From NCBI GenBank assembly GCA_009664345.1, contig CP043547.1:2756709-2820708 (forward strand): a DNA stretch of 64,000 nt, given 5' to 3'. This stretch comes from Planctomycetales bacterium 10988. Lineage in GTDB: Bacteria; Planctomycetota; Planctomycetia; Pirellulales; Pb10988. Under the pieces are notes generated by a model. That model ran no database searches. It was given only the letters and a program-made list of their open reading frames with translations, and had not been told where the DNA came from. Shown here in pieces: positions 6,700 to 58,904 of the stretch. How positions within the stretch are numbered: position 1 is the stretch's first letter; each line of letters starts with the position of its first letter. Position numbers and translations under genes: made by a program.

Positions 6700-7269
6700 A
6701 TGAGCCGTGCCTATCGCATTCAAGTTCGAGAAACCCTCAAACGTGTCTTTCGCACGGGAGACGCCGTGGCGACCGACTTGGAACTTTTGGAAATTCTGCC
6801 GAAAGAAGAGATGGCCGCGCTCCTCAAAGAGGAATTGCAAGGCCGGGGTTTCTCCGACGAAGAGGGAAAACTTCAGCGAACCCAAGGCAATATCATCATC
6901 AAGGTCGATCCCGCCACCGCTCAGGTTACTGTGGAAGCAGAATGTGAAGAAGAGGTGACCCTCTCCTCCGAACAAGTCGGCAATGCCTACGACGACGCCG
7001 GACCGAACGCTAAAGAAACCCGCGAAAAACTCCGAGAGACGGCGAAGGAGGACTTGATCGAACAAGCCGAGCGGCAAAAATCTCAGCTCCAAAGTCAAAC
7101 GACTGACCAATTGGAAACCGAACTTCAGGGCCTCCGCGAAGAGTTGGATCAAGTCGTCAATCGAGTCACCGCGGAAGCGTTAAAACGAAAAGCCGCCCAG
7201 CTTGGCAACATCAAAGAACTGTCAGAAGATGAAGAGACCGGCTCAATGACCATCGTCGTAGAACTTTAA
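6700..7269 (+). CDS. 189-aa first gene of the FtsH/MoxR/VWA-type locus (unknown function)
   Basis: A soluble acidic protein. It begins with a compact predicted alpha/beta part (residues ~1-85), including a hydrophobic beta hairpin, GNIIIKVDPATAQVTVEAE. A Glu/Lys/Gln-rich helix follows (about 105-165) that looks like a coiled coil, then a terminal strand, SMTIVVEL. AGAGG lies just before the ATG at 6700. I do not recognise an enzyme. Its position, size and beta-hairpin start fit the small 'X' components found beside FtsH-like and MoxR ATPases in so-called ternary systems (recalled from the literature, not searched). A role as adaptor or substrate-recognition partner for the adjacent protease is inference. 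Confidence 0.7.
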   Translation: MSRAYRIQVRETLKRVFRTGDAVATDLELLEILPKEEMAALLKEELQGRGFSDEEGKLQRTQGNIIIKVDPATAQVTVEAECEEEVTLSSEQVGNAYDDAGPNAKETREKLRETAKEDLIEQAERQKSQLQSQTTDQLETELQGLREELDQVVNRVTAEALKRKAAQLGNIKELSEDEETGSMTIVVEL

Positions 7270-7433
7270 TTTTTTTTAAACAAACGTATCCAACATCTAT
7301 TAAACATTAAAAACAAAAAACGCTTTTTGCTGTTAACTTTTTTAGTGCTTTTCTATTGTTAAAAATTTTAAACACTGGATCAAAAGTTAACACGCTTCTT
7401 TCTATTCCCCTTCTTTTCAGTTAAAGCGTTTCC
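7270..7433 (+). promoter_or_regulatory. AT-rich leader before the FtsH-like gene
   Basis: This 164-base stretch is strikingly AT-rich compared with both neighbours. It contains poly-A/T runs and two GTTAAC-like sites (about 7333 and 7386). It separates the 189-aa gene from the FtsH-like gene and may carry a promoter or regulatory site for the rest of the locus. No exact -35/-10 pair can be assigned with confidence. Confidence 0.35.
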
Positions 7434-9539
7434 ATGTCATTGCAGGTACCTGAGAGCGAACTTCCGATTGAATTAAATCCCTCGCAGGCAGTGGAAGCCG
7501 CCTATGCCGAGGAACTCGCGACCATCACTTCGGACCTACACCGAGGACTTCCCGTCTTGGTCGAATGTGATAAAGACTTGGCTCCTTATTTATATGTCGG
7601 TCTCCGCACGCGATTAAAACAAGTTGGGTTACAGTGTGCATATTTAGATGGTCGCAGTGCGGGAAATGTCAGCAATAACCAACCGGAAAACCTCGGCGGC
7701 GGCTTTCTGCGAACGTTGTTAAATCAATTACGAGACACCGTCCGCGGGGCAGTCGGAAGCCGCGTGGTGATCCTGCCGCATCTTGATTTGCTGGTCACGG
7801 GACAAGGGGGGCTGACGGCGGAAGCCCGTGAAGTCATTCCGCTGCTCTATGAAAATCCGGAGCTTGTTTGGCTTGGTTTTAAAGACCCTTCGTTCCCGCT
7901 GCCCAAAGTGATTGAACATCTCTTTCCCCATCATTACAGCATCCTCGGGGTCGCGCGTCCTCGCTTGCAACATTTAATCACCCAGCGAGAAGCCCGCAAG
8001 TTTGGCCGGAATTTTCAACCTTGGTCCCTCTATAAATATGTCTCCGGGATCAATGCGGTCCGCCTGCGAAAACTTTTATCAAGTCTGGAAGGGGAAGATT
8101 ATCCTGCCCAGCCGACGCAAGCCTATCAACAGATTCGTCAACAGACCGTTGCCGGTGAGCTAGAGATGCCGCAGGTCGATCTGCAAAAAGAGATCGGCGG
8201 CTACAGCCAAGTCAAAAAGCGAATCCAGCAAGAAATCCTCGACATTCTTACATTGAAAGAAAATGAAAACGATGCCGACCATATTCGGCAAATGGAAGAC
8301 TTGATCCCTCGCGGCATTATCTTTTGGGGTCCGCCAGGAACGGGAAAGACCCTCTTTGCCAAAGCGATTGCCACAGCCATCGGAGCGGCGTTGACAGTGG
8401 TTTCCGGGCCGGAATTGAAAAGCCGTTGGGTCGGTGAAAGTGAAGAACGTTTGCGACAAATCTTCCGCCGTGCCCGCCAATCCGCCCCGGCGTTGATTGT
8501 GTTCGACGAATTGGATTCCTTCGCCAGTGCCCGCGGAACGTATACCGGAAGCGGCGTTGAACATTCGATGGTCAACCAACTCCTCACGGAAATGGATGGC
8601 TTTCACAAAGAGGAACTGGTCTTTGTCATCGGTACCACGAACTTGGTGGAGAGCGTCGATCCTGCCCTGTTGCGGCCGGGGCGTTTTGAATTTCATTTGC
8701 AAATTCCCTATCCCGTCGCGGAGGACCGCCGCGAAATCTTGAAGATTTACGATCGTTCGATGAATCTCCAGATGACCGACGAGGCCCTGGAATATACCGT
8801 CAAGCGGACGTCCGAACCGGTCCCGTCCGCTGCCGCGGGGATGCTCTACACGGGCGATCATCTCCATGCCCTCTGCCGGGCGACTGCTCGGATGCGGCTG
8901 CGGGAGAGGATCACCGATGCGACCGATTCCAAGTTAATCGACCGGGCCTTAACCGAATGGATTGAACTTCCCAAGATGACGCAAAAAGAGGAACACGTCG
9001 TCGCCACGCACGAGGCCGGCCATGCGGTTGTTTCCCTCTTTTGCGAACACGCTCCGCCCATCGAACGCATCTCGATTCAAGGAGATGTCGCCGGGGCCTT
9101 GGGCTTTGTCCGCTATCAAGACCCGGCCCATCGCTATGTTATCACCAGAGGTCGCTTGCGGGATGATCTGTGTATCTTGCTTGGAGGACGGGTGGCCGAG
9201 CAGCTGTTGCTGGATGACCTTTCGATCGGTTCTTCCGATGATCTTCGCAGGGCAACCTCCATCGCCAGGGCATTGGTGGAAGAGTTTGGAATGGGCGGCG
9301 ATTTGGTAGGCATCGGTCGCTATCAGCAAGAAGATCGTCCGAGTCGGCATCCTCAACTTTCCCCGGAAAAACTTGCCCAACTCGATCGGCGAGTCGAGGA
9401 AATTTTGCAAGAGGCCCAACAAAGAGCAACGGACATTCTTACCGAAAACCGAGGACTTTTGGAAACCTTGCGGGATATGCTCTTCGAAAAGAAAGTCCTC
9501 GACGCCACCACGCTGGCTTCCCTCACGGCAAACGTCTAA
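7434..9539 (+). CDS. FtsH-like AAA+ ATPase with M41 zinc peptidase domain, lacking membrane helices
   Basis: A 701-aa ATP-dependent protease-type protein. Residues 1-240 form a soluble N-terminal domain unlike that of canonical FtsH: there are no transmembrane helices. The AAA+ domain has Walker A GPPGTGKT (299-306), Walker B LIVFDELDS, and the second-region signature TTNLVESVDPALLRPGRFEF with the arginine finger. The M41 domain has the intact zinc site HEAGH (526-530) and the third-ligand Asp in GSSDDLRRA (about D603). All catalytic residues are therefore present. Housekeeping FtsH degrades membrane and short-lived proteins; this variant should be cytosolic or recruited to the membrane by partners. 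It is embedded between locus-specific unknown genes, so it is probably the proteolytic engine of a dedicated system rather than the cell's general FtsH. Confidence 0.92.
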   Translation: MSLQVPESELPIELNPSQAVEAAYAEELATITSDLHRGLPVLVECDKDLAPYLYVGLRTRLKQVGLQCAYLDGRSAGNVSNNQPENLGGGFLRTLLNQLRDTVRGAVGSRVVILPHLDLLVTGQGGLTAEAREVIPLLYENPELVWLGFKDPSFPLPKVIEHLFPHHYSILGVARPRLQHLITQREARKFGRNFQPWSLYKYVSGINAVRLRKLLSSLEGEDYPAQPTQAYQQIRQQTVAGELEMPQVDLQKEIGGYSQVKKRIQQEILDILTLKENENDADHIRQMEDLIPRGIIFWGPPGTGKTLFAKAIATAIGAALTVVSGPELKSRWVGESEERLRQIFRRARQSAPALIVFDELDSFASARGTYTGSGVEHSMVNQLLTEMDGFHKEELVFVIGTTNLVESVDPALLRPGRFEFHLQIPYPVAEDRREILKIYDRSMNLQMTDEALEYTVKRTSEPVPSAAAGMLYTGDHLHALCRATARMRLRERITDATDSKLIDRALTEWIELPKMTQKEEHVVATHEAGHAVVSLFCEHAPPIERISIQGDVAGALGFVRYQDPAHRYVITRGRLRDDLCILLGGRVAEQLLLDDLSIGSSDDLRRATSIARALVEEFGMGGDLVGIGRYQQEDRPSRHPQLSPEKLAQLDRRVEEILQEAQQRATDILTENRGLLETLRDMLFEKKVLDATTLASLTANV

Positions 9540-9636
9540 AATAAATAAGAGCTAGCGGTCAAAATCCGACGGAATTGGAAAACAGGGTTTTTAGTCCGAG
9601 CCTCCAAAAACGACTCCTCTTTAGCGAGTGCAAATC

Positions 9637-9912
9637 ATGGCGGAAATGACGATCGAACTTCGAGTTGATCCCCAAACCGGTAAGCGGGATATCCTCATCG
9701 GACTCCGTTCGGACGCCGACGCGCTTCCTATGGAGCATGAACAACATCACCGCGAGCTAGTCAATAAACTGCTTGAAAAAGGGATCATCACCGAGGAGGA
9801 AATCGGCAAAGTGATCGTCGAGCGGGAGCAACCGGCCGAAGAAGAGCTTCCGCAAACCGAGGCGGAATCGACCCCCGAACAGGCCCGACAAGCCCACGCG
9901 GAGGGTAACTAG
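9637..9912 (+). CDS. Small acidic protein of the FtsH/MoxR/VWA-type locus
   Basis: About 91 aa from the ATG at 9637; an in-frame GTG at 9628 would add three residues. A strand-turn-strand opening, TIELRVDPQTGKRDILIGL, echoes the hairpin in the first gene of the locus. A helical middle (EHEQHHRELVNKLLEKG) and a low-complexity Glu/Ala/Pro tail follow. It has no Cys or catalytic signature. The stop is separated by three bases from the GTG start of the next gene, so translation is probably coupled. I read it as a conserved small accessory component whose function is unknown. Confidence 0.7.
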   Translation: MAEMTIELRVDPQTGKRDILIGLRSDADALPMEHEQHHRELVNKLLEKGIITEEEIGKVIVEREQPAEEELPQTEAESTPEQARQAHAEGN

Positions 9913-9915
9913 ATC

Positions 9916-12900
9916 GTGTCGTCTTCGCATCCGGTGTTGCATTTCCCTAACCTTCAAACGCTTCGTCTGGCCATCACCAGCAAGCTGCTCCCCACGCACA
10001 TTTTGGGGCAACCCACCAGAGGTCATCGTTCGGAAAAGGGCGATCTGTGGATTGAATTTCCCCACCCTTTGGAGAAGCAAACGCATCACGGACTGCATCA
10101 GCTCAATATCCAAACGGGTACGAAATCCCCACCTCTGAAGGAAAAAGTGCAAACGTGGTTCGAGTGGTTCCCTTTGCAAAAAGAGGCCGATCCCGTTCAC
10201 GATGAGCGTACTTCCATCCTCTTTTGGGTTGAAGACCCGCAGTCGCTCAACGAACTCATCTTTGAAATGTTACGGCTGGGCAACGACCGCCAGCGGTTTG
10301 CCATGATCATTCCCAAAGGCCGCCGAGGTGTTGGTCAACATTTCCTTCGCGTCCTTGGTCCTCCTTATTTTACCTTGGCCCGTGCCCAAGCCAGTGAGAG
10401 CCTTCCGCAACCGATCACTGCGTATTATCAACAACGCGATCGAGTCTGGGTGCCGTGGGGAAAGCAACATCCATTGGGAGATTTCCTGCGACCTCCTAAA
10501 AACTACTTTTTGCTTATTCCTCCGCAAGGCAAGTGGGAACTGTTCCCCGAGGTCCCCTTCCGTGACATTTATGAACTGACCGAGTTTCAGCTCCCCCGCC
10601 CAGCTCAACAACCAGCCGCTCTTGAATGGGAGAAACGTTTTCAAGTTCCTTTGAAATTGATTCGCCATCAAACGGCCGAACCGGCGGAGTTGTGGGTACT
10701 TCAGGAAAATGCCAATGAGCAGTTGGAAAAGCTCGTCCAAACCGCGGACGACCGGCTCTTGGAAAGGCTCACCTTCGCGGCCACGACCGATGACTCCGAG
10801 CCGATCCTCGTCTTGCGGGCACGCCCTTCTCGCGAAAAGCCTCCGGTATTGGGGCTGCAAGCGATTCGCTTTCGGCGTTTTTTTAACCTGCCGAATTTGT
10901 TCCTTCCGATCGATCAAACGATTTCGCCCCCGCTACGTCGCGATGTTGTGCAAAGGATTTTGGCCACCGACTCGCAATCCATCACTTGGCTCCATCCCAC
11001 TGGCGACGGATCGTTTCAGCAGGAATCGATGCCGGAAGGAAGTTTTCAGCCGCTTCGGCAGTGGGTCGATTATCTGCTGGAGCAAGAGCGAAAACCTTTG
11101 GAGACTTGGCAAAACGCGATGCAATTCGCCTTCGAACCGTTTATTTGCAACGACGATTTGACCTACGCTTCTTCAGAAAAGTCGCTGTCGGAAGAAGGTT
11201 CCTCCATGGACTTACCTTCCGCGGACTTCTTTCCTGAAGAGGAAAACTCGAAGTCGGAAACAAAAGAATCCGAACCAACACGAGAACAGGAAAAGGCCCC
11301 TTCCCCGCAACCGCCGCAAGAATCGTCCTCGCAGATGCTGCCCGCCCCGGACCATACTCGGCAGCGATTGCAGACATTGGAAAACGAGTATTTAGAGCAA
11401 GACTTTCATCTTTCTCCTGCGGAACGAATTGCCTTGTGGACCGAGATGGCCTTCCTAAATACCGAATTGAAGCAGTCATCGGACACCGCCAGTTGTTGGT
11501 TGCATGCCCTTTGGCTGGAGGAAAACCTCGATCCTTCCCAATGCCAAGCGTGGTTCATGGCGGAAGCCCAAGAACATGAACTCGCTCACGAGGCTCCGAC
11601 CCCGGCCTGGGAAGACCTGCTCGAAAAGGATACTTGGACGACTTCCGAAGCCCGCCTGATCATTGCATTACTCGTCTTCCTGCAAGCCCAAGCCACTGCT
11701 CAGCCTGGCGAACGGACCTCTTGGCAAAATTGGCTGCCTCGGCACGTAGAGAAAATACAGCAAAAGATGGAAGCTCAAGAACGAACGCTTCCGCTAAGGG
11801 CGATCTGGCTGGCGTGGCGGGCGATTGCCCACTTCTCTGGCGATGATGTTCTCAGCTTGGCACGGGCACGCGATCGCATTTTGGCTCGGCTGCATCTCCG
11901 CGGCGTCAGTCCCGACCTGGAACTCCCTCGTTTTCTGCGGGTTTCCGGCACTCAGTCCAGCGATCGACTCCGCCAAGTCGGCCAACACCTGGAAGCCCTC
12001 CGCGATCAAATTCAAACTTGGATTGAGGATTCGGAAGAGGAGGCCCTGATCAATCCAAATGAAGAAGCCCGCGAAGCGACCCAAGCCTACGCGGATTACA
12101 TTTTTGCTTTCGGAGCCGCGACACTTCACCGGACAGGGCTTGCGGATGAATGTTTGGAAAGTGCCCTTGTCCGACTCCCCTCAAATGATGCCGTTCATGA
12201 TTGTTTACGAGAAAGTTTTGAATACCGAATTCAACAGCGGCTCCAAGGCGATTCTCCCAGGGATCGGTTGCCGCCATCGATTCAAGAAAAGCTGGAACTT
12301 CTGACAAGTGATCAGTTTTTTATTTATGACAAATGGCGGCATCACTCCCGAATTCTGGAACCTAATGAACAACCGGATCGCTTTCGTAGACATCTCGATG
12401 AAGACTTAGTCCATCGCCTTGCCCGGCTTTCGGATTTACAAGATCGAGAAGAAGTGCTGGAAGGGATTCAACCGTATCTTGAGCCCGCAACTTTCGAGCA
12501 GGCCCAACTTGCCGATCAAGTAACGATATTAAAAACTGCCTTGGAACTATCACTCCGGTTGGGGGAAAGTTTTGCAAGGGAAAGTCTTTCACGACTAAGA
12601 GAAACCTATCACACCATTCAACAGAACCTAAAAAGCATTTTTTGGAAGATCTCCATTGAACAAGAGATCCAATTGATCGAACGGGCCTTCATCACCGCCG
12701 GTCATTATAATCTTTCCCAAGAAATAGAAATTTGGATTGCTCACTTTCGAGCAATTCTCAAGAAAGACTTTGATAATCAATCCTTAAAAGCGATCAGCAC
12801 ACTTTTTACCCATGGCTTGAAAAGTTTAAATAAAGTCGGCATGCGGCAAGAGATGAACCAACTCTTGGAAGAAACATCGCAACGAGCAGAACGTTGGCTC

Positions 12901-13374
12901 CGTCAGGCACAAGCTGACACGCCAGAAAACCCCGAAACTAAAGCAGAACAACTTCAGTTCCAACTTCAACTCACTGCGGCACATGCCATGCTGGCCCCGG
13001 AAGAAACCAGTTTTGAAGGAAATACAATCATTCACGAAACGCGGTCACTCCTTTTCAGTCAACGATTGAAAACAAAATCTAAACTAGCGTTGGCTTGTTG
13101 TTATGTGGAAGTTTTAAGTCAGGCCTCGCTAGAACAAATCTTACCATTACTAGAAGAAATATTTCAACAACTTCAAGGACTTGCTTATGATCTATCCATC
13201 AATAAAGATCACTACTGTTATCCTCAGCTAAAGTTTATTGAAACGGTTGTTCTGTTATTTGTCAGCGACGAATTGACACTCGACCGCAAAGTTCAGCAAC
13301 GGCTTGAACAAGAAGAATATGAACTTCGACGGCGTATTCACCGTGAAATGGAACAAGCACTTCAATCAATGTAA
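9916..13374 (+). CDS. 1152-aa large component of the FtsH/MoxR/VWA-type locus (unknown function)
   Basis: A GTG start (MSSSHPVLHF) lies three bases after the preceding stop. Three parts are visible: an N-terminal alpha/beta region (about 1-410) with many aromatic and Pro residues; an acidic Ser/Glu/Pro linker of low complexity (about 420-480); and a long almost wholly helical region (about 480-1152), rich in Leu, Gln, Glu and Trp with TPR/HEAT-like spacing. No signal peptide, membrane helix, nucleotide-binding loop or nuclease/protease motif is seen. Codons become AT-richer from about 12.3 kb. It probably serves as the scaffold or sensor of the locus (inference). It is the largest piece without a recognisable domain and the best candidate for new biology here. 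Confidence 0.75.
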   Translation: MSSSHPVLHFPNLQTLRLAITSKLLPTHILGQPTRGHRSEKGDLWIEFPHPLEKQTHHGLHQLNIQTGTKSPPLKEKVQTWFEWFPLQKEADPVHDERTSILFWVEDPQSLNELIFEMLRLGNDRQRFAMIIPKGRRGVGQHFLRVLGPPYFTLARAQASESLPQPITAYYQQRDRVWVPWGKQHPLGDFLRPPKNYFLLIPPQGKWELFPEVPFRDIYELTEFQLPRPAQQPAALEWEKRFQVPLKLIRHQTAEPAELWVLQENANEQLEKLVQTADDRLLERLTFAATTDDSEPILVLRARPSREKPPVLGLQAIRFRRFFNLPNLFLPIDQTISPPLRRDVVQRILATDSQSITWLHPTGDGSFQQESMPEGSFQPLRQWVDYLLEQERKPLETWQNAMQFAFEPFICNDDLTYASSEKSLSEEGSSMDLPSADFFPEEENSKSETKESEPTREQEKAPSPQPPQESSSQMLPAPDHTRQRLQTLENEYLEQDFHLSPAERIALWTEMAFLNTELKQSSDTASCWLHALWLEENLDPSQCQAWFMAEAQEHELAHEAPTPAWEDLLEKDTWTTSEARLIIALLVFLQAQATAQPGERTSWQNWLPRHVEKIQQKMEAQERTLPLRAIWLAWRAIAHFSGDDVLSLARARDRILARLHLRGVSPDLELPRFLRVSGTQSSDRLRQVGQHLEALRDQIQTWIEDSEEEALINPNEEAREATQAYADYIFAFGAATLHRTGLADECLESALVRLPSNDAVHDCLRESFEYRIQQRLQGDSPRDRLPPSIQEKLELLTSDQFFIYDKWRHHSRILEPNEQPDRFRRHLDEDLVHRLARLSDLQDREEVLEGIQPYLEPATFEQAQLADQVTILKTALELSLRLGESFARESLSRLRETYHTIQQNLKSIFWKISIEQEIQLIERAFITAGHYNLSQEIEIWIAHFRAILKKDFDNQSLKAISTLFTHGLKSLNKVGMRQEMNQLLEETSQRAERWLRQAQADTPENPETKAEQLQFQLQLTAAHAMLAPEETSFEGNTIIHETRSLLFSQRLKTKSKLALACCYVEVLSQASLEQILPLLEEIFQQLQGLAYDLSINKDHYCYPQLKFIETVVLLFVSDELTLDRKVQQRLEQEEYELRRRIHREMEQALQSM

Positions 13375-13455
13375 ACTTTGAATAACCTTATACAACGATT
13401 ACAAACAAAGAACACAATCTGTCACCTTCCACTTCAGGTTTTGTAAAAATTTATC

Positions 13456-14478
13456 ATGGCACAGGCAATTTCCGATCCCGACTGGACCTTTGAACAATTA
13501 CAAAATGAAGCGGAATCCATCCGCACGCGTTTGCATCATTTTCGCAATTCGCTGGGACGTTTCTTTGTTGAAAAGCAAGAGATCATTGACTTGATGGTCA
13601 TCGCCGCCGTCGCTCAAGAACCTTTACTCTTGGTCGGTCCACCCGGCACCGCAAAATCGGACCTTGTCTTGAAATTCAAAGACGCGATGAATCTGCCGGG
13701 TGAAGATTATTTTGAATATATGTTAACTCGTTTTAGTGAGCCGTCGGAGATTGTCGGTCCTATTGATATCAATCAACTTCGTGAAGGAAAATATATACGC
13801 CGCGAGCAAGGGAAACTTCCGACCGCGCGGGTGGCATTTTTGGATGAAATCTTTAAATCCAATTCGGCGATTCTCAATATTCTCCTCACCATTATCAATG
13901 AACGAAAATTCTACCAAGACGGAGTTCCCCAACCGGTTCGCTTACAAGTCCTCTTTGCCGCAACCAATGAAATCCCAGAACACGGAGAACTTTCCGCTTT
14001 AAAGGATCGCTTTGTACTGAAAGTTGAAAGTCAATCCGTTCAGAAAAACCACTTTGAAGCCCTGATCGATTCCGGCTTGCAAGCAGAAGTTCATCGTGTG
14101 TTGCAACAGAAACCATGGATGGAAGACCATGCAAATTTAACGGATTTTGTAAAAGCCCACCGTTATTTAACGTTTCTTTTTGGAAGACAAGAAAACACAA
14201 CTCAAGAAGAAACATTCAACGATCGCCAAATCTTTTTTCCTACAGAAATTTTTCAAGAATTTCAACGATTGGTTTCAACACTCGTTCAGGAAGAAAAGAT
14301 CGCCATCAGTGATCGAAAGCTTGTCAAACTTTATAAACTTCTACGAACACGAGCCTGGCTCTTTGCTGGGGGGACCGTCAGTCGAGATGATTTACGACTC
14401 TTAACCTATTTAGGGGAAACCCATGAAGAGATGGCTATTCTTAGAGAAAAAGTCCCTCTCTACTTAGGACTTGCTTAA
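13456..14478 (+). CDS. MoxR family AAA+ ATPase
   Basis: A 340-aa protein with a single AAA+ module of the MoxR/RavA kind: Walker A GPPGTAKS (61-68), Walker B VAFLDE (126-131) followed by FKSNSAILN, sensor-1 region LFAATNEIPEHGELSALKDRF, and a helical lid reaching the C-terminus. MoxR ATPases usually act as chaperones that activate a partner with a VWA domain. Here the next gene encodes a VWA-like protein, so a MoxR-VWA pair is likely. It is in the same direction as the FtsH-like gene and 81 bases after the 1152-aa gene. No clear Shine-Dalgarno precedes the ATG. Confidence 0.92.
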   Translation: MAQAISDPDWTFEQLQNEAESIRTRLHHFRNSLGRFFVEKQEIIDLMVIAAVAQEPLLLVGPPGTAKSDLVLKFKDAMNLPGEDYFEYMLTRFSEPSEIVGPIDINQLREGKYIRREQGKLPTARVAFLDEIFKSNSAILNILLTIINERKFYQDGVPQPVRLQVLFAATNEIPEHGELSALKDRFVLKVESQSVQKNHFEALIDSGLQAEVHRVLQQKPWMEDHANLTDFVKAHRYLTFLFGRQENTTQEETFNDRQIFFPTEIFQEFQRLVSTLVQEEKIAISDRKLVKLYKLLRTRAWLFAGGTVSRDDLRLLTYLGETHEEMAILREKVPLYLGLA

Positions 14479-14536
14479 CATTATGACTATACAATAAAGA
14501 GTTAGTTGAAAAGATAAAAATATATAAAATCGCTTT

Positions 14537-14543
14537 GCGGAGG
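14537..14543 (+). promoter_or_regulatory. Strong ribosome binding site that sets a GTG start
   Basis: GCGGAGG lies 7 bases before the GTG at 14551. It is the strongest Shine-Dalgarno sequence in this locus and supports GTG as the true start of the 501-aa VWA-like protein. Confidence 0.65.
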
Positions 14544-14550
14544 TTCCTTC

Positions 14551-16056
14551 GTGTGCCCTTTTATTCTCAATCATCTCGAAGACCCAACGCAATTTCAGAC
14601 AGAATTAAAATCCTTTGTCTGTCAGAGTTTTTCTTTTTCCCGGATCGCCCCTTTTCAAGAAAGTCTTTATCAACAAACGTTGCGAGTCGCTTGGGAAATG
14701 GCTTCTGAAGGATATGAAGTTCTCCCGCTGGGAATCATTGCGGATGTTTGTTCCTTGGCTTCGCTTCTATCCCCCGATGCAACTTATGACACACCTCTTC
14801 TTTTTTCTTCGTTCTTCTCAGAAAAGTCAACCAAGTTAGACAACGAACTTCAGCTCGTTTTACGTCAATATGAAGATTATGTTATGGGTAAACTTTATCT
14901 TGATGCCAGTGTCAGTGAAGCGTTTCGTTTATTAATTCACTATCGAGACCGTGATTCCGATCGGGCGATTGCTTTTTTATTTCAACAATGGATGAGTCGT
15001 GCAAATTTAGGTGGCATTGAATGGAATCCTGCTTGGTTAAAACAATTGCAATCTCTTCCGTGGGACGAAGTTCATCACTCGATGGAATGGGTCAAAGAAG
15101 ATTCTACCTTTCAAGAATCGTTAAAAAGCCATTATAAAGAAGTCATCGAAAAGACAAGAGATTTAGGAAGCCTTTTCGGAAAGGAAGACCTTTTCGAATT
15201 GCAACACCGGACGGCGATTGCCGGGTTTTCACAGCGGTTGGCGCTACGACAAATTTTACACTATTCGCAAATTTTCACCGAACACTTTAACGAACTTTCT
15301 TTAAAGCCCCGTCCACGAGCGGCGTTTATCTCTACAAAATTTCATCAATCCGAAAGCTATCCCACCGGAGGCTATGCCTCACTTTCTACTCGTGGGTCGA
15401 TTGAAAGTTTACTTTATTCTCAACTTGCTTATATGGAAAAAGAGGAACGGCCTGACCTCTTTGATGTTTATTATTTACGAAATGAACTTCTCTATTACTC
15501 TCGGGATGAAAATCTTTTCTTTCGTCGTCGTATTCGTTTTTATTGGGTCTTTCATCCCAGTTTAACAGAAACCCGACGGAAGGACCGGGAACTCCCTACC
15601 CAACGGATTATTTTACTTTGTGCCTTGTTGCGTGCGGCCTGGTTGTTGATTCAACGGGAGTTAGGAAAGGAAGCGTTAGCTTTAGACTTTATTTTTTTAG
15701 AACCAAACAACTCTATACACCACACACATCCCCTTTCTTTGGAATATCAGTTAATTCAACAACTTTTTCAAAGTGATCTCGAACGCGGAGATGTCAAGCT
15801 GCAAATGCTGTCGGAAGAATCCTTGCGAAGAAATTTAACGGCAACTCGAAAGTCAGAAGTTTGCCATCCGCTCTGGCTCACTTGTGAAAAGATCGCCGAA
15901 CAGGAATCGATGAGAGATTTTTCTGTTCTTTATTTCAATCAACCGCTTCCCCGTCTGCTGGAACCTTTGCCTTCTTCTGAAGGTGAAGAGTTACGAACGG
16001 GTCTTGAAGCCTGGAGTCAGACGTTTGAAAATTTTTTAAGAGAGTGGATTGAATAG
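14551..16056 (+). CDS. VWA-like protein with degenerate metal site, last gene of the FtsH/MoxR locus
   Basis: 501 aa with a GTG start. The N-terminal half (to about 255) is helical and unrecognised. The C-terminal half has the conserved-looking stretch GGYASLSTRGSIESLL (from G273), then ELLYYSRDENLFFRRRIRFY (from E312), leading into a hydrophobic strand ending YWVFHPSL. That strand occupies the place of the VWA MIDAS (normally DxSxS), and the helix and strand pattern after it (ALLRAAWLLIQREL, then LALDFIFL) fits a VWA Rossmann fold. HPS replaces the acidic motif, so metal-dependent ligand binding is probably lost. Adjacency to MoxR fits the MoxR-VWA pairing. The VWA assignment rests on pattern and context only. 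Confidence 0.7.
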   Translation: MCPFILNHLEDPTQFQTELKSFVCQSFSFSRIAPFQESLYQQTLRVAWEMASEGYEVLPLGIIADVCSLASLLSPDATYDTPLLFSSFFSEKSTKLDNELQLVLRQYEDYVMGKLYLDASVSEAFRLLIHYRDRDSDRAIAFLFQQWMSRANLGGIEWNPAWLKQLQSLPWDEVHHSMEWVKEDSTFQESLKSHYKEVIEKTRDLGSLFGKEDLFELQHRTAIAGFSQRLALRQILHYSQIFTEHFNELSLKPRPRAAFISTKFHQSESYPTGGYASLSTRGSIESLLYSQLAYMEKEERPDLFDVYYLRNELLYYSRDENLFFRRRIRFYWVFHPSLTETRRKDRELPTQRIILLCALLRAAWLLIQRELGKEALALDFIFLEPNNSIHHTHPLSLEYQLIQQLFQSDLERGDVKLQMLSEESLRRNLTATRKSEVCHPLWLTCEKIAEQESMRDFSVLYFNQPLPRLLEPLPSSEGEELRTGLEAWSQTFENFLREWIE

Positions 16057-16339
16057 CAAGTAATTTTGTCTCCTCAAAAGAAACACCTTCTCTTATGTAA
16101 CCAATAAGCCGATTAATCTAATTTTACGTTCTATACACACTCCTTCGAAGTATGACACTTTCTTCTACCGATATAGAATCAGTGAGGGAAGTAAAATCAA
16201 TTAAAGGATGATGACCTCGAAGAAGCTTCATGTGGGTTTGCAGACAAAATATCGAAACTCGTTTCCCCTGGCGAACTTTTTAAACTAGGATAGAAACAGG
16301 TCCCTCTCGATTGGCGGGCATTCGAATACTCTTGAAAGA

Positions 16340-17632
16340 ATGAAATTGAGGACGACGATGCGAAGTGGAGGCGTCTTCCTGGTAATCGGTTTAATCAGCT
16401 GGATGGCAATTCAAAGTCCAGCACCGGCTCAGATTTTAGAACAAATTATGATTCCCCCCTCGTCGGCAAATCGTTACGGTTTGCACCGGGCTTGGGTTTC
16501 GACGGTTGGGGTCGATCGATCGGTCGAGCGTGTTGAAAGCATCGCGTACAACCGGGGATTGCTATTGGTTAAGACTTCAACGAATACCTTGCATGCCGTG
16601 GATGCGAAGACTGGCCGTACTCTTTGGAAGACCCAAGTCGGGGGGATTCTGGGGGCAAGTGGTACGCCGGCGGCCAATGCAACGGCTGTTTGTATTATCA
16701 GCAATGACATTCTTTATTTATTTGATCGGCAAACGGGTCGTGTGTTGGGCGAAGTCGAACTTCCGGCGGTCCCTTTCTGCGGGCCGTCGATGTCGGATTC
16801 TTATGTCTATATTCCCTTGTCGAATGGTACTTTGGCCAGTTATAGCATTCGCCCGGATGTGAATGGTGAATATGATATGGCCAGGGTTTGGAATTACGGG
16901 ATCAGTGCGATTCTCATTGATCCGGCGGTGGTTACGCAGGAATCGGTTTGCTGGGCTTCGCGGAATGGAACGGTTGTCAGCTCCGATCTGGATGATCGAA
17001 ATATCCGTTTTCAATTTGAAACGATTGGCGGCATCAGTGGGCCGCTGGCCGCACGCCATCCTTATCTGTTCATCCCCAGTCGCGACAACGGCATTACCAC
17101 CGTGGGAATCGATTCCGGTCCGCTCTCTGGTCGGACGATTTGGCGATATAATGCGGGTGGCCCCGTGATTGATCAGCCGGTTCCCATTGGAAATACCCTT
17201 TATATTGTGCGAGATTTGTTTGGGATGATTGCTTTGGAAATCGAAACCGAAGCAGCACGCCGGGCGCGATTTGGAGAGATCGATAGCGCGGATGTGAAGA
17301 GTACCGGAGGGAATGTTTTCTGGATTTCTCGTGGGGTCGATAAGTTCCTCGCTGCGAGTCCGACGCGGGTTTATGCCGCGGATGCTAACGGTCGCATGCT
17401 CATTTTACATGCTCGTACCGGAGCACGTTTGGGGACTCTGCCGACGGAATCCTCGACTATCAAGCTTTCCAATATGCAAGATGATCGCATCTTCCTCTGC
17501 TCCAGCACGGGGATTCTTCAGTGCTTGCATGAAATCGATTTGGTCGATCCCGTGCAGTATAACTTGCCGGAAGAAAACCTGGGGCCGACCATTCAACAGG
17601 GTCAGAACTTGGAAACTCGCCTCGCTCGCTAA
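16340..17632 (+). CDS. Secreted PQQ-type beta-propeller protein
   Basis: 430 aa with an N-terminal signal peptide (hydrophobic core VFLVIGLISWMAI, cleavage near PAPAQ). Repeated propeller blades follow: LHAVDAKTGRTLWKTQVGG, LYLFDRQTGRVLGEV, MLILHARTGARLG. This is the PQQ-binding-like repeat fold, but such planctomycete proteins usually lack the dehydrogenase catalytic residues and probably act in the periplasm as binding or structural proteins. Two starts are possible: ATG 16340 or ATG 16358. The second has GAGG at good spacing and gives a cleaner signal peptide. The gene stands alone and ends at a bidirectional hairpin shared with the facing cyclase gene. Confidence 0.85.
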   Translation: MKLRTTMRSGGVFLVIGLISWMAIQSPAPAQILEQIMIPPSSANRYGLHRAWVSTVGVDRSVERVESIAYNRGLLLVKTSTNTLHAVDAKTGRTLWKTQVGGILGASGTPAANATAVCIISNDILYLFDRQTGRVLGEVELPAVPFCGPSMSDSYVYIPLSNGTLASYSIRPDVNGEYDMARVWNYGISAILIDPAVVTQESVCWASRNGTVVSSDLDDRNIRFQFETIGGISGPLAARHPYLFIPSRDNGITTVGIDSGPLSGRTIWRYNAGGPVIDQPVPIGNTLYIVRDLFGMIALEIETEAARRARFGEIDSADVKSTGGNVFWISRGVDKFLAASPTRVYAADANGRMLILHARTGARLGTLPTESSTIKLSNMQDDRIFLCSSTGILQCLHEIDLVDPVQYNLPEENLGPTIQQGQNLETRLAR

Positions 17633-31465: not shown

Positions 31466-33241
31466 ATGTCCTGGCAAGCCGCTCGTTCCTTGCAAGTAGG
31501 GGCTTCTCAACGAATCCCCGTTGCTGCTGATTCTGCCAAATCGTTCCGCCGTCGAAGCCGAGAAGGGATCATCTTGGTCCTTTCCACCTTTATAATGGTG
31601 ATCATTTTCGCCATGGCCGCCTTTGCGGTTGACTTGGGTTTTATTGTATTAACGCAAGCCGAACTCCAAAACGCGGCGGATGCCTCGACGCTTGCCGCAG
31701 TCATTGAGTTAGGGGGGCAACTATCGGCTGACGATGCGAAGTCCGCCGCCATGGCCGAAGCTAAAAAAGTAGCTGCGATGAATGTCGCGGCAGGCCGTCC
31801 GGTGACGCTGTATGATGCTGATATCGATGTCGGAACGCGAACGAAAGACGAAAATGGATACGTTGAATCCTGGGGAGGGGAAGGGCCCTATAATGCCGTT
31901 CGCACCACGCCGCGTCGTACGAACGCAGACCCTAACGCTCCGGATGGACGATTAGAGCTTTTCTTTGCCGACGTCATGTATCACCTTAACAACAAAGATG
32001 CCTATTTAGCTTCTTTGACAGCGGTTGCCCGTGCTCACCTGACTCCTCGGGATATGGTCTTTGTGATCGATCGAAGTGGATCAATGAACTCGGATACTCT
32101 ATGGCCAAGCGGCGGGTCTTCTTCCGAAGTTGAGGCCATTTGTAAAAAGTTATTTGGAGGAAATCCTGACTGGAATGCAAGAGAGAGTACCCACTGGAAT
32201 AGTTTGAACTATTTTCCTGGTTATGAGGACCTTTATGAATGGGCTCTTGATCGAGAGATGTTTGATAGGTCCAGAAATGGCACAAACCTAACTCAAGAGC
32301 AATTTTTTGATCAAGAGTTCCCTGCAGATGAACTTCCTTGGGGGGTGAACTCAAATCATCACTGGAGGCATTGGAAGTGGGAAGCCTTTTGTGATTTTCA
32401 ATGGAGGCGAGATAGCCGCCATAACAACTTCCGAACCTATTCCTATTGGGGAGGTAGCTGGTCCAGTTGGGGAAACAATCAATACCGAAAGTTTAGCCTT
32501 CGCCAATATGTTACCTTCTTGACCTTGAATGGATATCTGCCCGCTTTCCGTAACCAATCTTTTAATGAATTGAGACGCTGGGGCAGTGGCTCCAATGATT
32601 ATGAACTTTATCCGCTTCCCATTCAAACAGGTGCTTGGGACGAGGATGATCTTGTTCCTTCCCGACCGATCAATCTCGTGAGAACTGCCGCCTTGGAAGG
32701 GATCACCGAGATGGAAGAAGGGAGCAACTTAGACTCCAATTTCTATGACCAACTAGGCTATGTCAGCTATGGAACGAAAGCGACCAAGGATTATTACTTG
32801 GCGAAAGAACTCGGCGAGGTGAAGAATGCGGCGGCCAATGTGGTCGGCGGGGCGATGTCTGGAAATGGTCTGACGAACATTCAAATGGGAATCAAGCTCG
32901 GTCGGCAGGTATTGCTCGATACAGATAACAATGCCCGCGAATTTACCACGAAAGTCCTGGTACTATTGAGTGATGGTCTTCCTAATATTTATGACGATTA
33001 TGGAAACTACAATCAGTACAATGCTAAAGTCAACTCGATTTATCAGGCGGAACAAACCGCTGCTGCCGGGATCTACATTCATACCATTGCCTTGGGTTCG
33101 GGGGCAGATCGTGACTTGATGGATGATATTGCAGAGATTGGTCGTGGTTCTTCCTTCTATGCAAGTACCTCGAACCAAAATGATCTCACATCGATTTTTG
33201 TGGATATTGCTAAGGATCGTTTAGGGAAGTTCTTTAAATAA
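31466..33241 (+). CDS. TadE/G-like anchored protein with VWA domain (copy 1)
   Basis: 591 aa. An N-terminal Arg-rich stretch precedes a TadE/TadG-type membrane helix (about 34-60, GIILVLSTFIMVIIFAMAAF) and the family motif AVDLGFIVLTQAELQNAADA. A VWA domain follows with an intact MIDAS, D202-x-S204-x-S206 (VFVIDRSGSM), interrupted by a large Trp/Asn/Tyr-rich insertion (about 210-410). It resumes with VLLSDGLPN and HTIALGSGADRDLMDDIA. TadG-like proteins are exported through Flp/Tad-type systems or anchored at the envelope, and VWA domains bind proteins through metal. It is paralogous to the gene at 35645 along its whole length. Confidence 0.88.
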   Translation: MSWQAARSLQVGASQRIPVAADSAKSFRRRSREGIILVLSTFIMVIIFAMAAFAVDLGFIVLTQAELQNAADASTLAAVIELGGQLSADDAKSAAMAEAKKVAAMNVAAGRPVTLYDADIDVGTRTKDENGYVESWGGEGPYNAVRTTPRRTNADPNAPDGRLELFFADVMYHLNNKDAYLASLTAVARAHLTPRDMVFVIDRSGSMNSDTLWPSGGSSSEVEAICKKLFGGNPDWNARESTHWNSLNYFPGYEDLYEWALDREMFDRSRNGTNLTQEQFFDQEFPADELPWGVNSNHHWRHWKWEAFCDFQWRRDSRHNNFRTYSYWGGSWSSWGNNQYRKFSLRQYVTFLTLNGYLPAFRNQSFNELRRWGSGSNDYELYPLPIQTGAWDEDDLVPSRPINLVRTAALEGITEMEEGSNLDSNFYDQLGYVSYGTKATKDYYLAKELGEVKNAAANVVGGAMSGNGLTNIQMGIKLGRQVLLDTDNNAREFTTKVLVLLSDGLPNIYDDYGNYNQYNAKVNSIYQAEQTAAAGIYIHTIALGSGADRDLMDDIAEIGRGSSFYASTSNQNDLTSIFVDIAKDRLGKFFK

Positions 33242-33276
33242 GCTGCTGACGATCGATCAAAGAAACTGAAAACCGA

Positions 33277-33311
33277 AACCTCCCTCGTATCCATTCGAGG
33301 GAGGTTTTTTT
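33277..33311 (+). terminator. Rho-independent terminator of VWA copy 1
   Basis: AACCTCCCTCG (33277-33287) pairs perfectly with CGAGGGAGGTT (33296-33306), followed by a T-run. The stem nearly matches the terminator of VWA copy 2 at 37455. Confidence 0.92.
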
Positions 33312-33485
33312 GTGGAAAAAGCCTTCCTTTGGCAAATTCCCCTCGATTTAGCCTGAAGTTAAACTAAGCTAAGAGCAAGATCGAGATATTTATCACCTAA
33401 GCTGTTTGCTTGAAAAAGAGAGTTCTTCCTATTCAGGCAACAGAGTTCATCTTTTCTTTTTTCAGAATATGTGGTAGCGATAACG

Positions 33486-34694
33486 ATGAGTTTTTCGCCA
33501 TTGAATCGTCGAGAAATGCTGACGCAGTTATCTACTGCTTGTGCTGCTGGGACTTGGCTCTCCGGCGCCGGCTCGGCCTTGGCAGCCGGATTAACTTCGC
33601 AGCCGGGCAAGTCGATGGAAATGATGCATGAGCAATATTTCATCACTTGGCGTCCCAAATTCCAAACCCAATCGATTGCCTTTCAGCCAGAATTTGAATC
33701 GGATGCCACAAAATTCGGGCTCCTTTTCCCCGCCCCTTCGAAACCGATTTCCAGCACGTTGCCGAGCGATTTGTTCGTTTTGCTAGGCATGTATACTCAG
33801 CTTGATGATATCAGCTATCGGGATTACGACCCCAAATCCATCTTCTATCCAGACCAAGAAGTTGAGCCGATTCCCCCTTCGGCACTGGGAGCGTTCAACC
33901 CGTTGCCTGAAAATATTCTTCGACCTGGTGCGATTGCGACGATTCCCCCGGATGAAATTGAAGTCCAAAAGTGGTTCCAGAAAAACCGCTTTAATTACGG
34001 TCCTTATCAAGCAATTATTAAGAGCTATATTGATCAAGGCTGGTTCTTAGCGGCGACTGTCATTGATGTACGCGACGTGAAACGGGTTCCGGACAATACC
34101 TTCATGGGGGTCACACGTCCTATCCGGCTGACCTTTGCCACGCCGGAGCCGGTTGTTCCGCTGCGTATTTCGCAACCCTCGGCCAGCACCGTGATCGGGA
34201 CGACTTATTATATTGTCGCACCCGAGAAGATGGATTTTGCCGGGGAAGAAAGCTATCAAACGAATTGGCAACTTAGATGGAGTAAAGGCTACGATAATCT
34301 CATTTCCTCCAAACGCACCGGCAAATTGGATGATTGGTTGAAGTGGGTGAAGAAAAATGAGCGACAACTGAAAATCCAAAAGCTCAAAGATGAACGCGAT
34401 GGGAAGATGAGAAGCGAGTTGGAATTCGCCAAGGCGATCTCGATTTCCGATTTGGCCGCCATGAATGGCCGGACACCTTATCGAGGAATCTATCAGCCAA
34501 TCGCTAAAGAAATGTCCAAGTTACGATCCCTCTTGGCCAGTGATTACTATATGACCAAGATTTATCGGGCCGTCGAGAAGAAAGAGTTGAACGATTCGTT
34601 GAAGCTCCAGGTTGCTCAATTCGCTGAAAAGGACGATCCAACCGAATACAGCCGGATGTATCCGATCTGGAAGGACGAAGTCAGCCGTCGTTAG
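33486..34694 (+). CDS. Secreted DUF2330-like protein
   Basis: About 402 aa from ATG 33486 (an in-frame GTG at 33471 adds five). The N-terminus, NRREMLTQLSTACAAGTWLS, followed by AGSALA, looks like a signal peptide with a twin-arginine flavour. The mature part has many beta strands and the pattern of DUF2330-type proteins (YFITWRPKFQTQSIAFQPEF, a Pro-rich middle, PIRLTFATPEPVVPLRIS). The last ~130 residues are helical and charged. Function is unknown. It lies between the two TadG/VWA paralogs on the same strand, perhaps as a functional partner (inference). Confidence 0.65.
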   Translation: MSFSPLNRREMLTQLSTACAAGTWLSGAGSALAAGLTSQPGKSMEMMHEQYFITWRPKFQTQSIAFQPEFESDATKFGLLFPAPSKPISSTLPSDLFVLLGMYTQLDDISYRDYDPKSIFYPDQEVEPIPPSALGAFNPLPENILRPGAIATIPPDEIEVQKWFQKNRFNYGPYQAIIKSYIDQGWFLAATVIDVRDVKRVPDNTFMGVTRPIRLTFATPEPVVPLRISQPSASTVIGTTYYIVAPEKMDFAGEESYQTNWQLRWSKGYDNLISSKRTGKLDDWLKWVKKNERQLKIQKLKDERDGKMRSELEFAKAISISDLAAMNGRTPYRGIYQPIAKEMSKLRSLLASDYYMTKIYRAVEKKELNDSLKLQVAQFAEKDDPTEYSRMYPIWKDEVSRR

Positions 34695-35644
34695 ATTTTT
34701 GAGTTTCGCTCAAGAGTACCTTGAGTCACTTTTTACAATCCGTTTCTCTCTCCTTTGGGTTTTGACTACGGATTCTAAGTAAAAAGCACTTTTTATACTG
34801 CGTTGGCCATAAACTGCCTTTGCGTGCCAAGTTTCAAACGGCTTTCGCGAAGGCATTTTTTTATTGAATTAATCCACCGTTCTTTAAAGGGATTTAAATA
34901 TAAAATTGATGAATTCCTGAAAAAAACGAAATTAGTTATTGAGCTTAATGGGGGCTTTATTTTATAGTCTAGGGTATATATGCTGACCATTAAATTTCTA
35001 GTTAAGATGAACTAGGTATAGAGGTTAGCTTTATAAATTTACATGATCTTTGTGCGGGGATAAAGGTTATGTTGATCAGGTTTTATTTTCTATTTTACGA
35101 CTATTTTTAATTTTAAATAGAAAGTATCAGGTTTTTCTGACATGTTGATTCCCGCATTGAAATGGTATAGCAGCCATTTTGTCCCTTCCTTGGTTGTGCC
35201 GGCAATTGCCCTTCTTTTTGGCACCTTCCTTTTGAATGCGGTGATGAACTTCTTGCTTTCATTAACAGCCGCAACTTCAAGCGATTTCTTTGACCCGAAG
35301 AGCCAGTGGTTAACACCCGACATCAACAGAATGGCACTTGGAAAAAGTGGCGTTCAAGAAACTTTTTCTACAAACATTAAAAGTTTTATGAGCAGTGTTT
35401 CTTTGTTGAATCCATTATTCAAACGAAGGAGGAATTTATATCAGAGCCCGTGATCAAATTCAGCTCTTCCGGAGAAGCATCCAACAAGGTAACTCTCAGG
35501 AGGCTTTTGACCACTCACTTGAAACGATCGACTCGTTGAGCATAGCGTTCCTACCTTTGTCATAGGGGACAAATCTGGAGGACGGGCATTTCATCTTCCA
35601 GGGGTCCTAACATATTTTTTAGTGTCGTTTAACGGAGTTTTCTC
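34695..35644 (+). other. Long leader region of the second TadG/VWA gene
   Basis: About 950 bases. A degenerate IS5-type end (TTTTGACTACGGATTCTAAG) lies near 34758 and a shorter one (TTTTGACCACT) near 35508. The 18-bp block at 35048 and TAGGGGACAAATC at 35563 parallel the leader of copy 1. A 103-codon frame at 35142-35453 has a hydrophobic N-terminus, but its counterpart in the other leader does not keep the frame, so I do not call it. Confidence 0.45.
35048..35065 (+). repeat. Copy 2 of the 18-bp block shared by two VWA-gene leaders
   Basis: CTTTGTGCGGGGATAAAG, identical to 30902-30919, 597 bases before the start of the second TadG/VWA gene. Spacing to the gene is similar to copy 1. Confidence 0.6.
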
Positions 35645-52463: not shown

Positions 52464-52514
52464 TCAAGAGAATCCTTTGCTGATCATTCGACTAGCAAAA
52501 AGTAGTTTTTAGAA

Positions 52515-52551
52515 GCGAGAGAATTTTACGGAAGGTTCTCTCGCTTTTTTT
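52515..52551 (+). terminator. Rho-independent terminator of giant protein 1 gene
   Basis: GCGAGAGAA (52515-52523) pairs with TTCTCTCGC (52535-52543), followed by a run of T. Confidence 0.92.
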
Positions 52552-52710
52552 GTGTTCTCCAGAAGTCCCCAGAAATGGCTGCGCCTGGAGCAGAGTGGTG
52601 CGAAATTTTGTAACGTTGTTAGACCTTGTGATCTTTCAGCGATATAGTCAGGGTTCGTTGTTGCTTAACGTTGCCTAGGTTATCGAATTTGCCTAATCAG
52701 GAATCTTTGT

Positions 52711-55272: not shown

Positions 55273-55302
55273 CGGCCCACTTCAAAAACTTCAACCATTC
55301 AC

Positions 55303-55337
55303 AAGGCGAGGGTGCCCATTATCCTCGCCTTTTTTAT
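55303..55337 (+). terminator. Rho-independent terminator of giant protein 2 gene
   Basis: AAGGCGAGG (55303-55311) pairs perfectly with CCTCGCCTT (55323-55331), followed by TTTT. Confidence 0.9.
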
Positions 55338-55485
55338 TTGTCGAGAAGTTATTTCTATTCGGTATAAGATATCGAATGCCTTTGACTGTTAGGCAATCAG
55401 AAGGGAATCGGTTAGAATCGTAAAAGTGTCCAAAGAATGACAACTACTGTCATCTTTAACCTCACTTTTACTTTAGAGAAGTTAA

Positions 55486-56781: not shown

Positions 56782-57085
56782 GAAAATATTGAAATTACAA
56801 AACCCGCTTAATAATTATCTTTCAAGACGAAACCTGTCCCCTTGATTTGCTTCTAACCGTTTAAGAGCCCTCTGGGTACCAAGCAACTTCGCCCTCAACT
56901 GGCCACTCAACCCGTCTGGACCTATAAAACATTACTGAGCCACAGAAGTAAGCTCCAGTCTAGTAAAGGTAAAAGATATAGGTAGGTAATATGGCGAATT
57001 GCCGACGCCTTGCCTTCTCCCTGAAGTGTCAAGCCTAAACAGACGCATTTGGATTTGATCACCTGCAAATCAAAAGGTAGCTACG
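56782..57085 (+). other. Intergenic region before catalase
   Basis: About 300 bases, no gene supported. AT-rich just after the preceding stop, GC-richer near the catalase start. Catalase promoter presumably here; no operator was recognised. Confidence 0.4.
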
Positions 57086-58594: not shown

Positions 58595-58665
58595 ATTTCA
58601 CATCGCTCGAAGATTAAATTCGCCTGAACTCTATCATTGTAAAAGATAGTTCATACATTAACCTC

Positions 58666-58709
58666 AGCCTGGGAACCTTCAGCAGAAGAGTTCTTCCCAG
58701 GCTTTTTTT
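58666..58709 (+). terminator. Rho-independent terminator of the catalase gene
   Basis: AGCCTGGGAA (58666-58675) pairs perfectly with TTCCCAGGCT (58694-58703), followed by seven T. Confidence 0.92.
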
Positions 58710-58904
58710 GTTGAATTCTATATTCTATTCCAACAGATCATGAAAAAAAGATAAAAGTCTGCGACATCCAGACTGCTTTATCGTACCTAGGGGTGTAGGC
58801 CTTCATGAAATAGACCAAAGTAAAAACTTAATGTAAACAAGAGAGTGCGACGATGTTCGGCACTTTCGTACATTTCCCAGCTTCCAGCCTTTTCTCGTGA
58901 GAAG

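Follow-up and report, generated by a model that had tools for sequence, protein, structure and literature searches.

A split FtsH-type ternary system in a planctomycete: six genes at one locus and two predicted partner genes elsewhere in the chromosome

Here, we analyzed a window of 64,000 nucleotides from the chromosome of Planctomycetales bacterium 10988 (genome G000, contig C1, positions 2756709-2820708), in which six + strand genes at window positions 6700-16056 form the locus under study. Their open reading frames (ORFs) were scanned against Pfam, where every protein found a strong match. In genomic order, they encode fvmX5 (hereafter X5), one of the small FtsH ternary-system proteins (6700-7269; 189 aa; PF20003, E-value 3.4e-61); an FtsH-type protein (7434-9539; 701 aa; PF00004 AAA, 3e-40, and PF01434 Peptidase_M41, 1.9e-38); fvmX3-analog (X3a; 9628-9912; 94 aa from a GTG codon, or 91 aa from an internal ATG; PF20002, 5e-29); fvmX7 (X7; 9916-13374; 1152 aa from a GTG start; PF20005, 4.8e-75); a MoxR AAA+ ATPase (13456-14478; 340 aa; PF20030 bpMoxR, 6.1e-61); and a protein made of a helical N-domain and a divergent von Willebrand factor A (vWA) domain, called ivWA (14551-16056; 501 aa from a GTG start; PF19997 ivWA, 1.3e-32, and PF19996 ivWA-helical_N, 2e-22). 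According to the coordinates, the successive spacers measure 164, 88, 3, 81, and 72 bp. An earlier, sequence-only reading of this DNA had listed six same-strand ORFs in this order, all of which are present, the roughly 91-aa protein that it mentioned corresponding to the internal ATG start. It had also named the FtsH/MoxR/vWA ternary systems, an identity that is borne out by the Pfam matches and by the source paper, in which MoxR–vWA ternary systems, the FtsH type included, were proposed from comparative genomics (Kaur, Burroughs, Iyer, and Aravind 2020, eLife 9:e52696; PMC7159879). Judging from these family assignments, the six genes are a member of this already published predicted class, in its simpler FtsH type.

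The FtsH-type protein is laid out as an N-region without P-loop (residues ~1-240), an active AAA+ domain with Walker A and Walker B (~250-510), and an M41 zinc protease domain (511-701). The motifs GPPGTGKT, FDELDS, and HEAGH, in keeping with the FtsH-like AAA+ protein described earlier, are all found in this second gene and, across 46 aligned rows (the window's own row is counted in this and all other alignments), GxPGTGKT is kept in 46/46, HExxH in 45/46, and the Asp that serves as third zinc ligand in 46/46. Because the catalytic residues are kept in 45-46 of the 46 rows, the zinc protease is expected to be active. With respect to solubility, the top 19-residue hydropathy stretch (mean 1.67) starts at residue 307, a position that belongs to the AAA domain and directly follows the P-loop; by hydropathy, no separate membrane anchor is therefore indicated. 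Median identity in the 70-85% bin amounts to 72% for the conserved N-region, 74% for the AAA domain, and 44% for the M41 domain: the catalytic residues of both the AAA and M41 domains are kept though the latter otherwise diverges fast. As for the small X3a, a D.lp.EHEq.H segment is conserved in an alignment of 38 rows.

The AlphaFold2 model of X7, built from 40 sequences (mean predicted local distance difference test [pLDDT] score 84.4), comprises an alpha/beta N-domain (residues 1-395), a disordered linker (~396-477), and an alpha-solenoid (478-1152), which would likely make this protein a scaffold or a client binder. The MoxR protein carries a variant P-loop, GPPGTAKS, which matches the GxxxTAKS signature, and its nearest solved structure is that of RavA (E-value 2.5e-34, over residues 24-206). 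The 501-aa protein had been called VWA-like, and it does belong to the ivWA family; however, no recognizable DxSxS metal ion-dependent adhesion site (MIDAS) is seen in 32 aligned rows, and an invariant YPxGG...[RK]G...ESLL segment stands in its place. No match at E-value <= 1 was found for it by sequence in the PDB, and Pfam gives PF19996 and PF19997 only, hence no C-terminal beta-propeller.

The sequence-only reading had taken these six genes as the whole unit, which proved too narrow, since fvmX6 (X6) and a radical S-adenosylmethionine (SAM) enzyme also appear to belong to it. A genome search located a single copy of fvmX6 in the same chromosome (C1:2914176-2915186, minus strand), ~141 kb past the vWA end of the six-gene run, with a radical-SAM gene directly before it; no radical-SAM gene adjoins the six-gene run. 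This radical-SAM enzyme resembles NrdG and pyruvate formate-lyase (PFL) activases: it matches NCBIfam TIGR02491 with an E-value of 2.6e-28, below that model's cut-off, and PFL-activases are its only matches among solved structures at E-value <= 0.001 (3c8f, 1.1e-14). No peptide gene that could accompany it was recognized among the short ORFs upstream of the radical-SAM gene. The X6 model (31 sequences; pLDDT 93.2) is nearly all helical. The association of the two genes recurs, the radical-SAM gene adjoining X6 in 20 out of 20 X6 loci inspected directly, with RtcA, an RNA 3'-phosphate cyclase, alongside in 19 of them.

That the gene set recurs elsewhere was then apparent from the neighborhoods of relatives. 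X5 precedes FtsH, with X3a and X7 behind it, in 24 of the 34 FtsH loci that have enough contig on both sides (54 loci in total), and X5 lies upstream of FtsH in 37 of 49 loci with room for it. In one genome (G395), X6, X5, FtsH, X3a, X7, MoxR, and vWA follow one another in a single run, and most of the module is found in one contig stretch in Limnoglobus roseus PX52, Zavarzinella formosa DSM 19928, and Gemmata sp. IIL30 (loci L030, L031, and L044), these stretches showing no vWA gene and, in the last one, no MoxR either. Ahead of X5, relatives often carry RtcA, a radical-SAM gene, and fvmX6, none of which is found beside the X5 of the window. In a quick-method FtsH tree of 42 rows, which includes three long branches, the window adjoins locus L013 with a support of 90, and the two belong to a starred group of 13 that also includes rows from Pirellulaceae and Planctomycetaceae, the Gemmata-like group standing apart.

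Several local variations were also observed. In L013, the nearest relative of the window, a WD40 propeller gene (15762-17009) is inserted between X7 and MoxR. In two Rubripirellula loci, a lipoprotein-like PQQ-propeller gene lies directly behind X5-FtsH, with a 2 bp gap or a 4 bp overlap (L020:3205-4521 and L021:7821-9143), and neither X3a nor X7 was found beside X5-FtsH. In L048 (12980-20649) and other Gemmata-like loci, X7 is followed by a tandem second X7 gene (X7') that shares ~19-25% identity with the X7 of the window, versus 29-34% for the first copy; these loci mostly have no MoxR directly behind, with L038 as an exception. Finally, a metagenome-assembled genome labeled Bacteroidales (L054) displays a full run from RtcA, radical SAM, X6, X5, FtsH, and X3a to X7 and X7', and falls among Gemmataceae in two trees; its contig may be either a transfer or mis-binned.

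Beyond gene neighborhoods, we looked at the co-occurrence of the parts across 258 genomes of the class Planctomycetia, with counts that ignore kinship. X6 was detected in 52 of these genomes, which also encode ivWA (50), X7 (48), the FtsH-type MoxR (50), all four of these parts together (48), and the radical-SAM enzyme (52, in two pieces in G599). Conversely, among 28 X6-negative controls, chosen by hand before the results were known (26 carry RtcA and 7 come from family f112), ivWA was never found above the cut-off (G542 and G403 being below it), X7 was found once, and MoxR once. The radical-SAM profile matched four of 13 controls, which were picked from the 28 after the ivWA, X7, and MoxR results: G542, as strongly as X6-positive genomes (5.9e-88), and, more weakly, G566 (7e-46), G121 (2.9e-45), and G430 (5e-5). 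The FtsH-type MoxR was counted as a tier with E-values of ~1e-46 to 1e-64, below a tier of 1e-89 to 1e-103, a cut that we set ourselves and that includes a fragment in G493. The sole exception for both X7 and MoxR, G542, holds a contig run of X6, X5, FtsH, X3a, X7, and MoxR, its X6 having escaped the Pfam search and being found with a custom profile (1.7e-7); it is a missed positive rather than a true X6-negative exception.

In most genomes, these parts are scattered. When X6, X7, MoxR, and ivWA were placed by contig in the 48 complete genomes, 2 genomes had them all at one place, 6 at two places, 29 at three, and 11 at four, although the higher counts may partly come from broken assemblies. 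Within single-contig genomes, three places were counted in G399, G404, G408, G414, and G426, and two in G539 and in the genome of the window. No other genome sampled from the taxonomic order to which the window belongs has X6. The presence of the parts varies among close relatives as well: in genus g337 (five genomes seen), all parts tested are present in two genomes (G455 and G525) and absent from the other three (G489, G529, and G578); in family f5, G520 has all parts and G266, G291, G315, and G468 have none of X6, X7, ivWA, and the MoxR tier; in family f6, three of five X6-positive genomes are complete (G395, G443, and G463) and two are incomplete (G531 and G483). A picture of patchiness drawn from a phylum-wide sample (X7 in 11/392, X6 in 8/392) was discarded as misleading, no f112 genome being among the rows listed. 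On this basis, the sequence data point to eight parts that form one unit though scattered, six of them here and two ~141 kb away. What had been a cassette drawn from gene neighborhoods hence becomes a list of parts whose members co-occur even when unlinked, to which the radical-SAM enzyme is added as a tight partner.

RtcA was considered as a ninth part and rejected. In 31 of the 52 X6-positive genomes, X6 has RtcA upstream of it on its own strand, with a one-gene gap (677-1010 bp) in between. Of the 45 X6-positive genomes that have RtcA, 34 carry it next to the radical-SAM gene, among them G533, G513, and G596, in which it is apart from X6; for G596, the place counted is not that of the best hit but of a further, short RtcA fragment that neighbors the radical-SAM gene. 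The strong raw association of RtcA with X6 (45/52 X6-positive versus 65/206 X6-negative genomes) is confounded by family. In a phylogeny of 65 RtcA proteins, comprising 16 full-length operonic rows and the 48 best-scoring unlinked rows for which a locus was available, the 16 operonic rows form one group with a single unlinked row inside (L147), and the RtcA of the window's own genome falls outside this operonic branch, across a 100/100 split. RtcA thus probably joined the operon by a single recruitment in the Gemmataceae line and would not be part of the window's system; it has no mention in the main text of Kaur et al. (PMC7159879). In Gemmataceae, RtcA, the radical-SAM gene, and fvmX6 were seen as a tight run ahead of X5-FtsH (L048:5949-8889 and L109-L128).

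Compared with the published class, the system of the window shares with the FtsH ternary system a GxxxTAKS MoxR, a helical N-domain followed by a divergent vWA, an active AAA domain, a P-loop-less FtsH N-domain, the fvmX5, X3-analog, X6, and X7 families, and an associated radical-SAM gene, but differs in that X6 and the radical-SAM gene stand here in another locus. Two FtsH types have been described, and in the simpler one a large N-domain made entirely of helices is fused to the vWA; FtsH ternary systems are also characterized by an FtsH component whose N-terminal AAA copy is inactive and whose second copy is active, and by a divergent vWA that may or may not have lost its metal-binding aspartates (PMC7159879). 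The effector of these systems was described as an adjacent stand-alone gene, either NEFF1 or a radical SAM with a peptide, the radical-SAM enzymes of FtsH systems being presented as relatives of those of Memo-Ammecr1 systems and as having a peptide for substrate; the main text calls FtsH a chaperone and has no mention of M41 (PMC7159879).

A closer common ancestor of the FtsH and beta-propeller systems had been inferred from their P-loop and divergent vWA (PMC7159879). The beta-propeller MoxR–vWA system (bpX0-bpX4 and bpMoxR; PMC7159879) has a MoxR of the same Pfam family as that of the window, but has no FtsH, X5, X6, or X3a. In this regard, the genome of the window was seen to hold a separate beta-propeller ternary locus at ~3.50-3.51 Mb of the same contig (L198, 3497000-3516999), encoding a Ser/Thr protein kinase, bpX4, bpMoxR, bpX2, a vWA-region protein with bpX0/bpX1, and bpX3. 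The bpX2 of this locus aligns to positions 264-375 of the X7 profile, a part of the N-domain (3.4e-10 when compared singly, 1.6e-7 within a small set), and the vWA region of the locus harbors PxGGF...RG...LL.S.LAY.E as in ivWA (6.9e-8 as a single comparison). The two ternary systems are thereby linked through X7/bpX2 and through a common vWA motif that is not a MIDAS, and the X7–bpX2 match would bring further support for their common ancestry.

Two better-known machines offer partial parallels. RavA, of the RavA–ViaA pair of Escherichia coli, is the nearest solved relative of the window's MoxR, and ViaA, like the vWA protein of the window, has a helical N-region and a C-terminal vWA; yet the RavA match spans MoxR residues 24-206 only, the RavA model PRK13531 scores 145.3 bits against MoxR for a cut-off of 681, and the vWA of the window has no recognizable MIDAS. 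To our knowledge, FtsH, X5-X7, and radical SAM are absent from RavA–ViaA. Canonical membrane FtsH (TIGR01241) likewise combines AAA and M41 domains with intact catalytic residues, but the protein of the window reaches 288.9 bits for a cut-off of 600, has no separate anchor indicated, and carries an extra P-loop-less N-domain.

Taken together, these features are compatible with a soluble, ATP-driven machine that remodels or degrades its clients, a split simpler-type FtsH ternary system with a radical-modification arm, which we consider the most likely reading, with an even chance of being correct. Under this hypothesis, the active AAA ring of a soluble FtsH hexamer would unfold a client and feed it to the M41 zinc protease, adaptors would dock through the conserved P-loop-less N-domain of FtsH and the small X5 and X3a, and X7 would serve as a scaffold, its long solenoid holding either the partner motor or the client. 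A remodeling pair similar to RavA–ViaA would be formed on X7 by MoxR and the helical-vWA protein, when the radical-SAM enzyme, with X6, would modify the client or activate a radical in it, remodeling and degradation being two possible outcomes of a single triage step. The catalytic residues, the co-occurrence, and the solenoid model are observations; we infer a single complex, a scaffold role for X7, and client modification. The sequence-only reading had likewise imagined two AAA+ engines and a scaffold, and the anatomy fits the two engines and the long solenoid behind its alpha/beta domain and disordered linker, when the scaffold role is a guess.

Several points weigh against this machine, whose complex, activity, and client are at present predictions. 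The fold search for X7 returned alpha-solenoid rows (importin-beta, retromer, and designed repeats), with a best Z of 14.1 across 220 residues and a best Foldseek E-value of 6e-3, a likeness that would reflect a common arrangement, hence the guess about the scaffold; for X6, no Foldseek match was found at E-value <= 0.001, and the best VIA Z was 6.9 over 170 residues. MoxR and X7 lie within 12 kb of each other in 11 of 48 X6-positive genomes, and MoxR and ivWA in 6 of 49; since MoxR and vWA are mostly far from X7 and from each other, the shared complex would rest on co-occurrence rather than on operons. Besides, parts are missing in G531 (ivWA, X7, and MoxR), G563 (ivWA and X7), G483 (X7 and MoxR), and G554 (X7): the first genome is 77% complete, the third 83% complete, and the second broken into ~1420 contigs, but G554 has no such excuse. 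Finally, family f112, which is probably Gemmataceae, holds 45 of the 52 X6-positive genomes, in counts uncorrected for relatedness.

From the perspective of its authors, the class would rather be made of biological conflict systems, in which MoxR–vWA would set a threshold, X7 or another part would sense an invader, and FtsH proteolysis together with a radical-SAM-modified product would be the effector, a possibility that we hold as tentative and somewhat unlikely here. It draws on the class-level inference and on an association with a multicellular habit (63/79 for the FtsH type; PMC7159879, Table 1), as well as on the patchy presence within genus g337, and on the fact that X6, the M41 domain, and the linker and solenoid of X7 are the fastest-diverging parts. 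Matches to PADLOC defense models, namely of the FtsH AAA part to IetA (3.4e-28, residues 214-460) and TRIP13, and, weakly, of the radical-SAM enzyme to prokaryotic viperin (5e-4), look like general family likeness, and no PADLOC match at E-value <= 0.01 was obtained for X5, X3a, X7, vWA, and X6. However, no variable effector or swapped gene was seen in the operon, the order of which is constant in the loci compared (nearly all planctomycete), and the genes mostly lie dispersed along the chromosome, unlike those of a mobile defense cassette. The conflict role, proposed in the sequence-only reading alongside quality control, was shown by nothing that we found: among 87 flanking proteins from relatives (up to four of the longest proteins, 200-1300 aa, per locus in L013-L040; four are MoxR-family proteins and some are maybe antisense ORFs), SspA and the cysteine-desulfurase-like DndA were each matched twice by PADLOC at E-value <= 1e-10, and five further models once each, RT-Protease_XI (1.6e-22) being the strongest of these, so that no clear defense genes and no enrichment in them are apparent in a comparison made without control flanks. 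Our literature search, which did not span the whole literature, found no experimental test of any FtsH ternary system, in agreement with the earlier remark that no such system has an experimentally shown function; with a list of parts at hand, the conflict hypothesis becomes testable against quality control.

It is rather unlikely, in our view, that the system matures a radical or metal enzyme, with MoxR–vWA pairs of the RavA–ViaA and chelatase kind helping cofactors to be inserted, an NrdG/PflA-like enzyme providing either a modification or a radical, and FtsH removing the failed clients. The presence of the radical-SAM enzyme in all X6-positive genomes and its exclusive likeness to PFL-activases among solved structures would fit such a role, as would the proximity of MoxR to RavA, for which ties to both complex I and fumarate reductase are reported in E. 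coli. Nevertheless, no client gene, be it a glycyl-radical enzyme or a metalloenzyme, was recognized beside the module in the annotated loci, glycyl-radical families not having been searched genome-wide.

More speculative still, and in our opinion improbable, is a scenario in which the client is marked by the glycyl-radical-activase-like radical-SAM enzyme in an obligate, dispersed eight-part machine, before MoxR–vWA remodels it or FtsH destroys it, and in which RtcA in Gemmataceae betrays a quality control of ribonucleoproteins. If this were true, RtcA beside the radical-SAM gene would point to a ribonucleoprotein client such as a damaged tRNA, a ribosome, or a tRNA-ligase complex; we know of no radical-tagged ribonucleoprotein quality-control pathway. 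As for a chance neighborhood of unrelated housekeeping genes, in favor of which one could invoke the lower G+C content of MoxR (43%) and vWA (42%) relative to X5, FtsH, and X3a (53-56%), it is already refuted by the conserved order in relatives and by the strong co-occurrence of the parts even when unlinked, and can be practically dismissed. This compositional difference, which is also visible at third codon positions (0.40 and 0.36 versus 0.56-0.62), could mean that the genes of the locus have different origins.

Around the six-gene run, Pfam identifies an Rrf2 regulator and an M24 peptidase upstream, and a PQQ-propeller gene with a signal-peptide-like start lies downstream, at window position 16340, separate from the vWA gene. 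The three were rejected as parts of the system, having no phmmer match at E-value <= 1e-3 in the relatives' loci compared. Farther along the window, two proteins of 591 and 587 aa (31466-37408) combine a TadE/G-like start with a C-terminal vWA domain, perhaps marking a pilus locus, and 48222-63214 encodes three large FG-GAP-repeat proteins of 1413, 853, and 1390 aa, of which two also contain Big_12 Ig-like domains.

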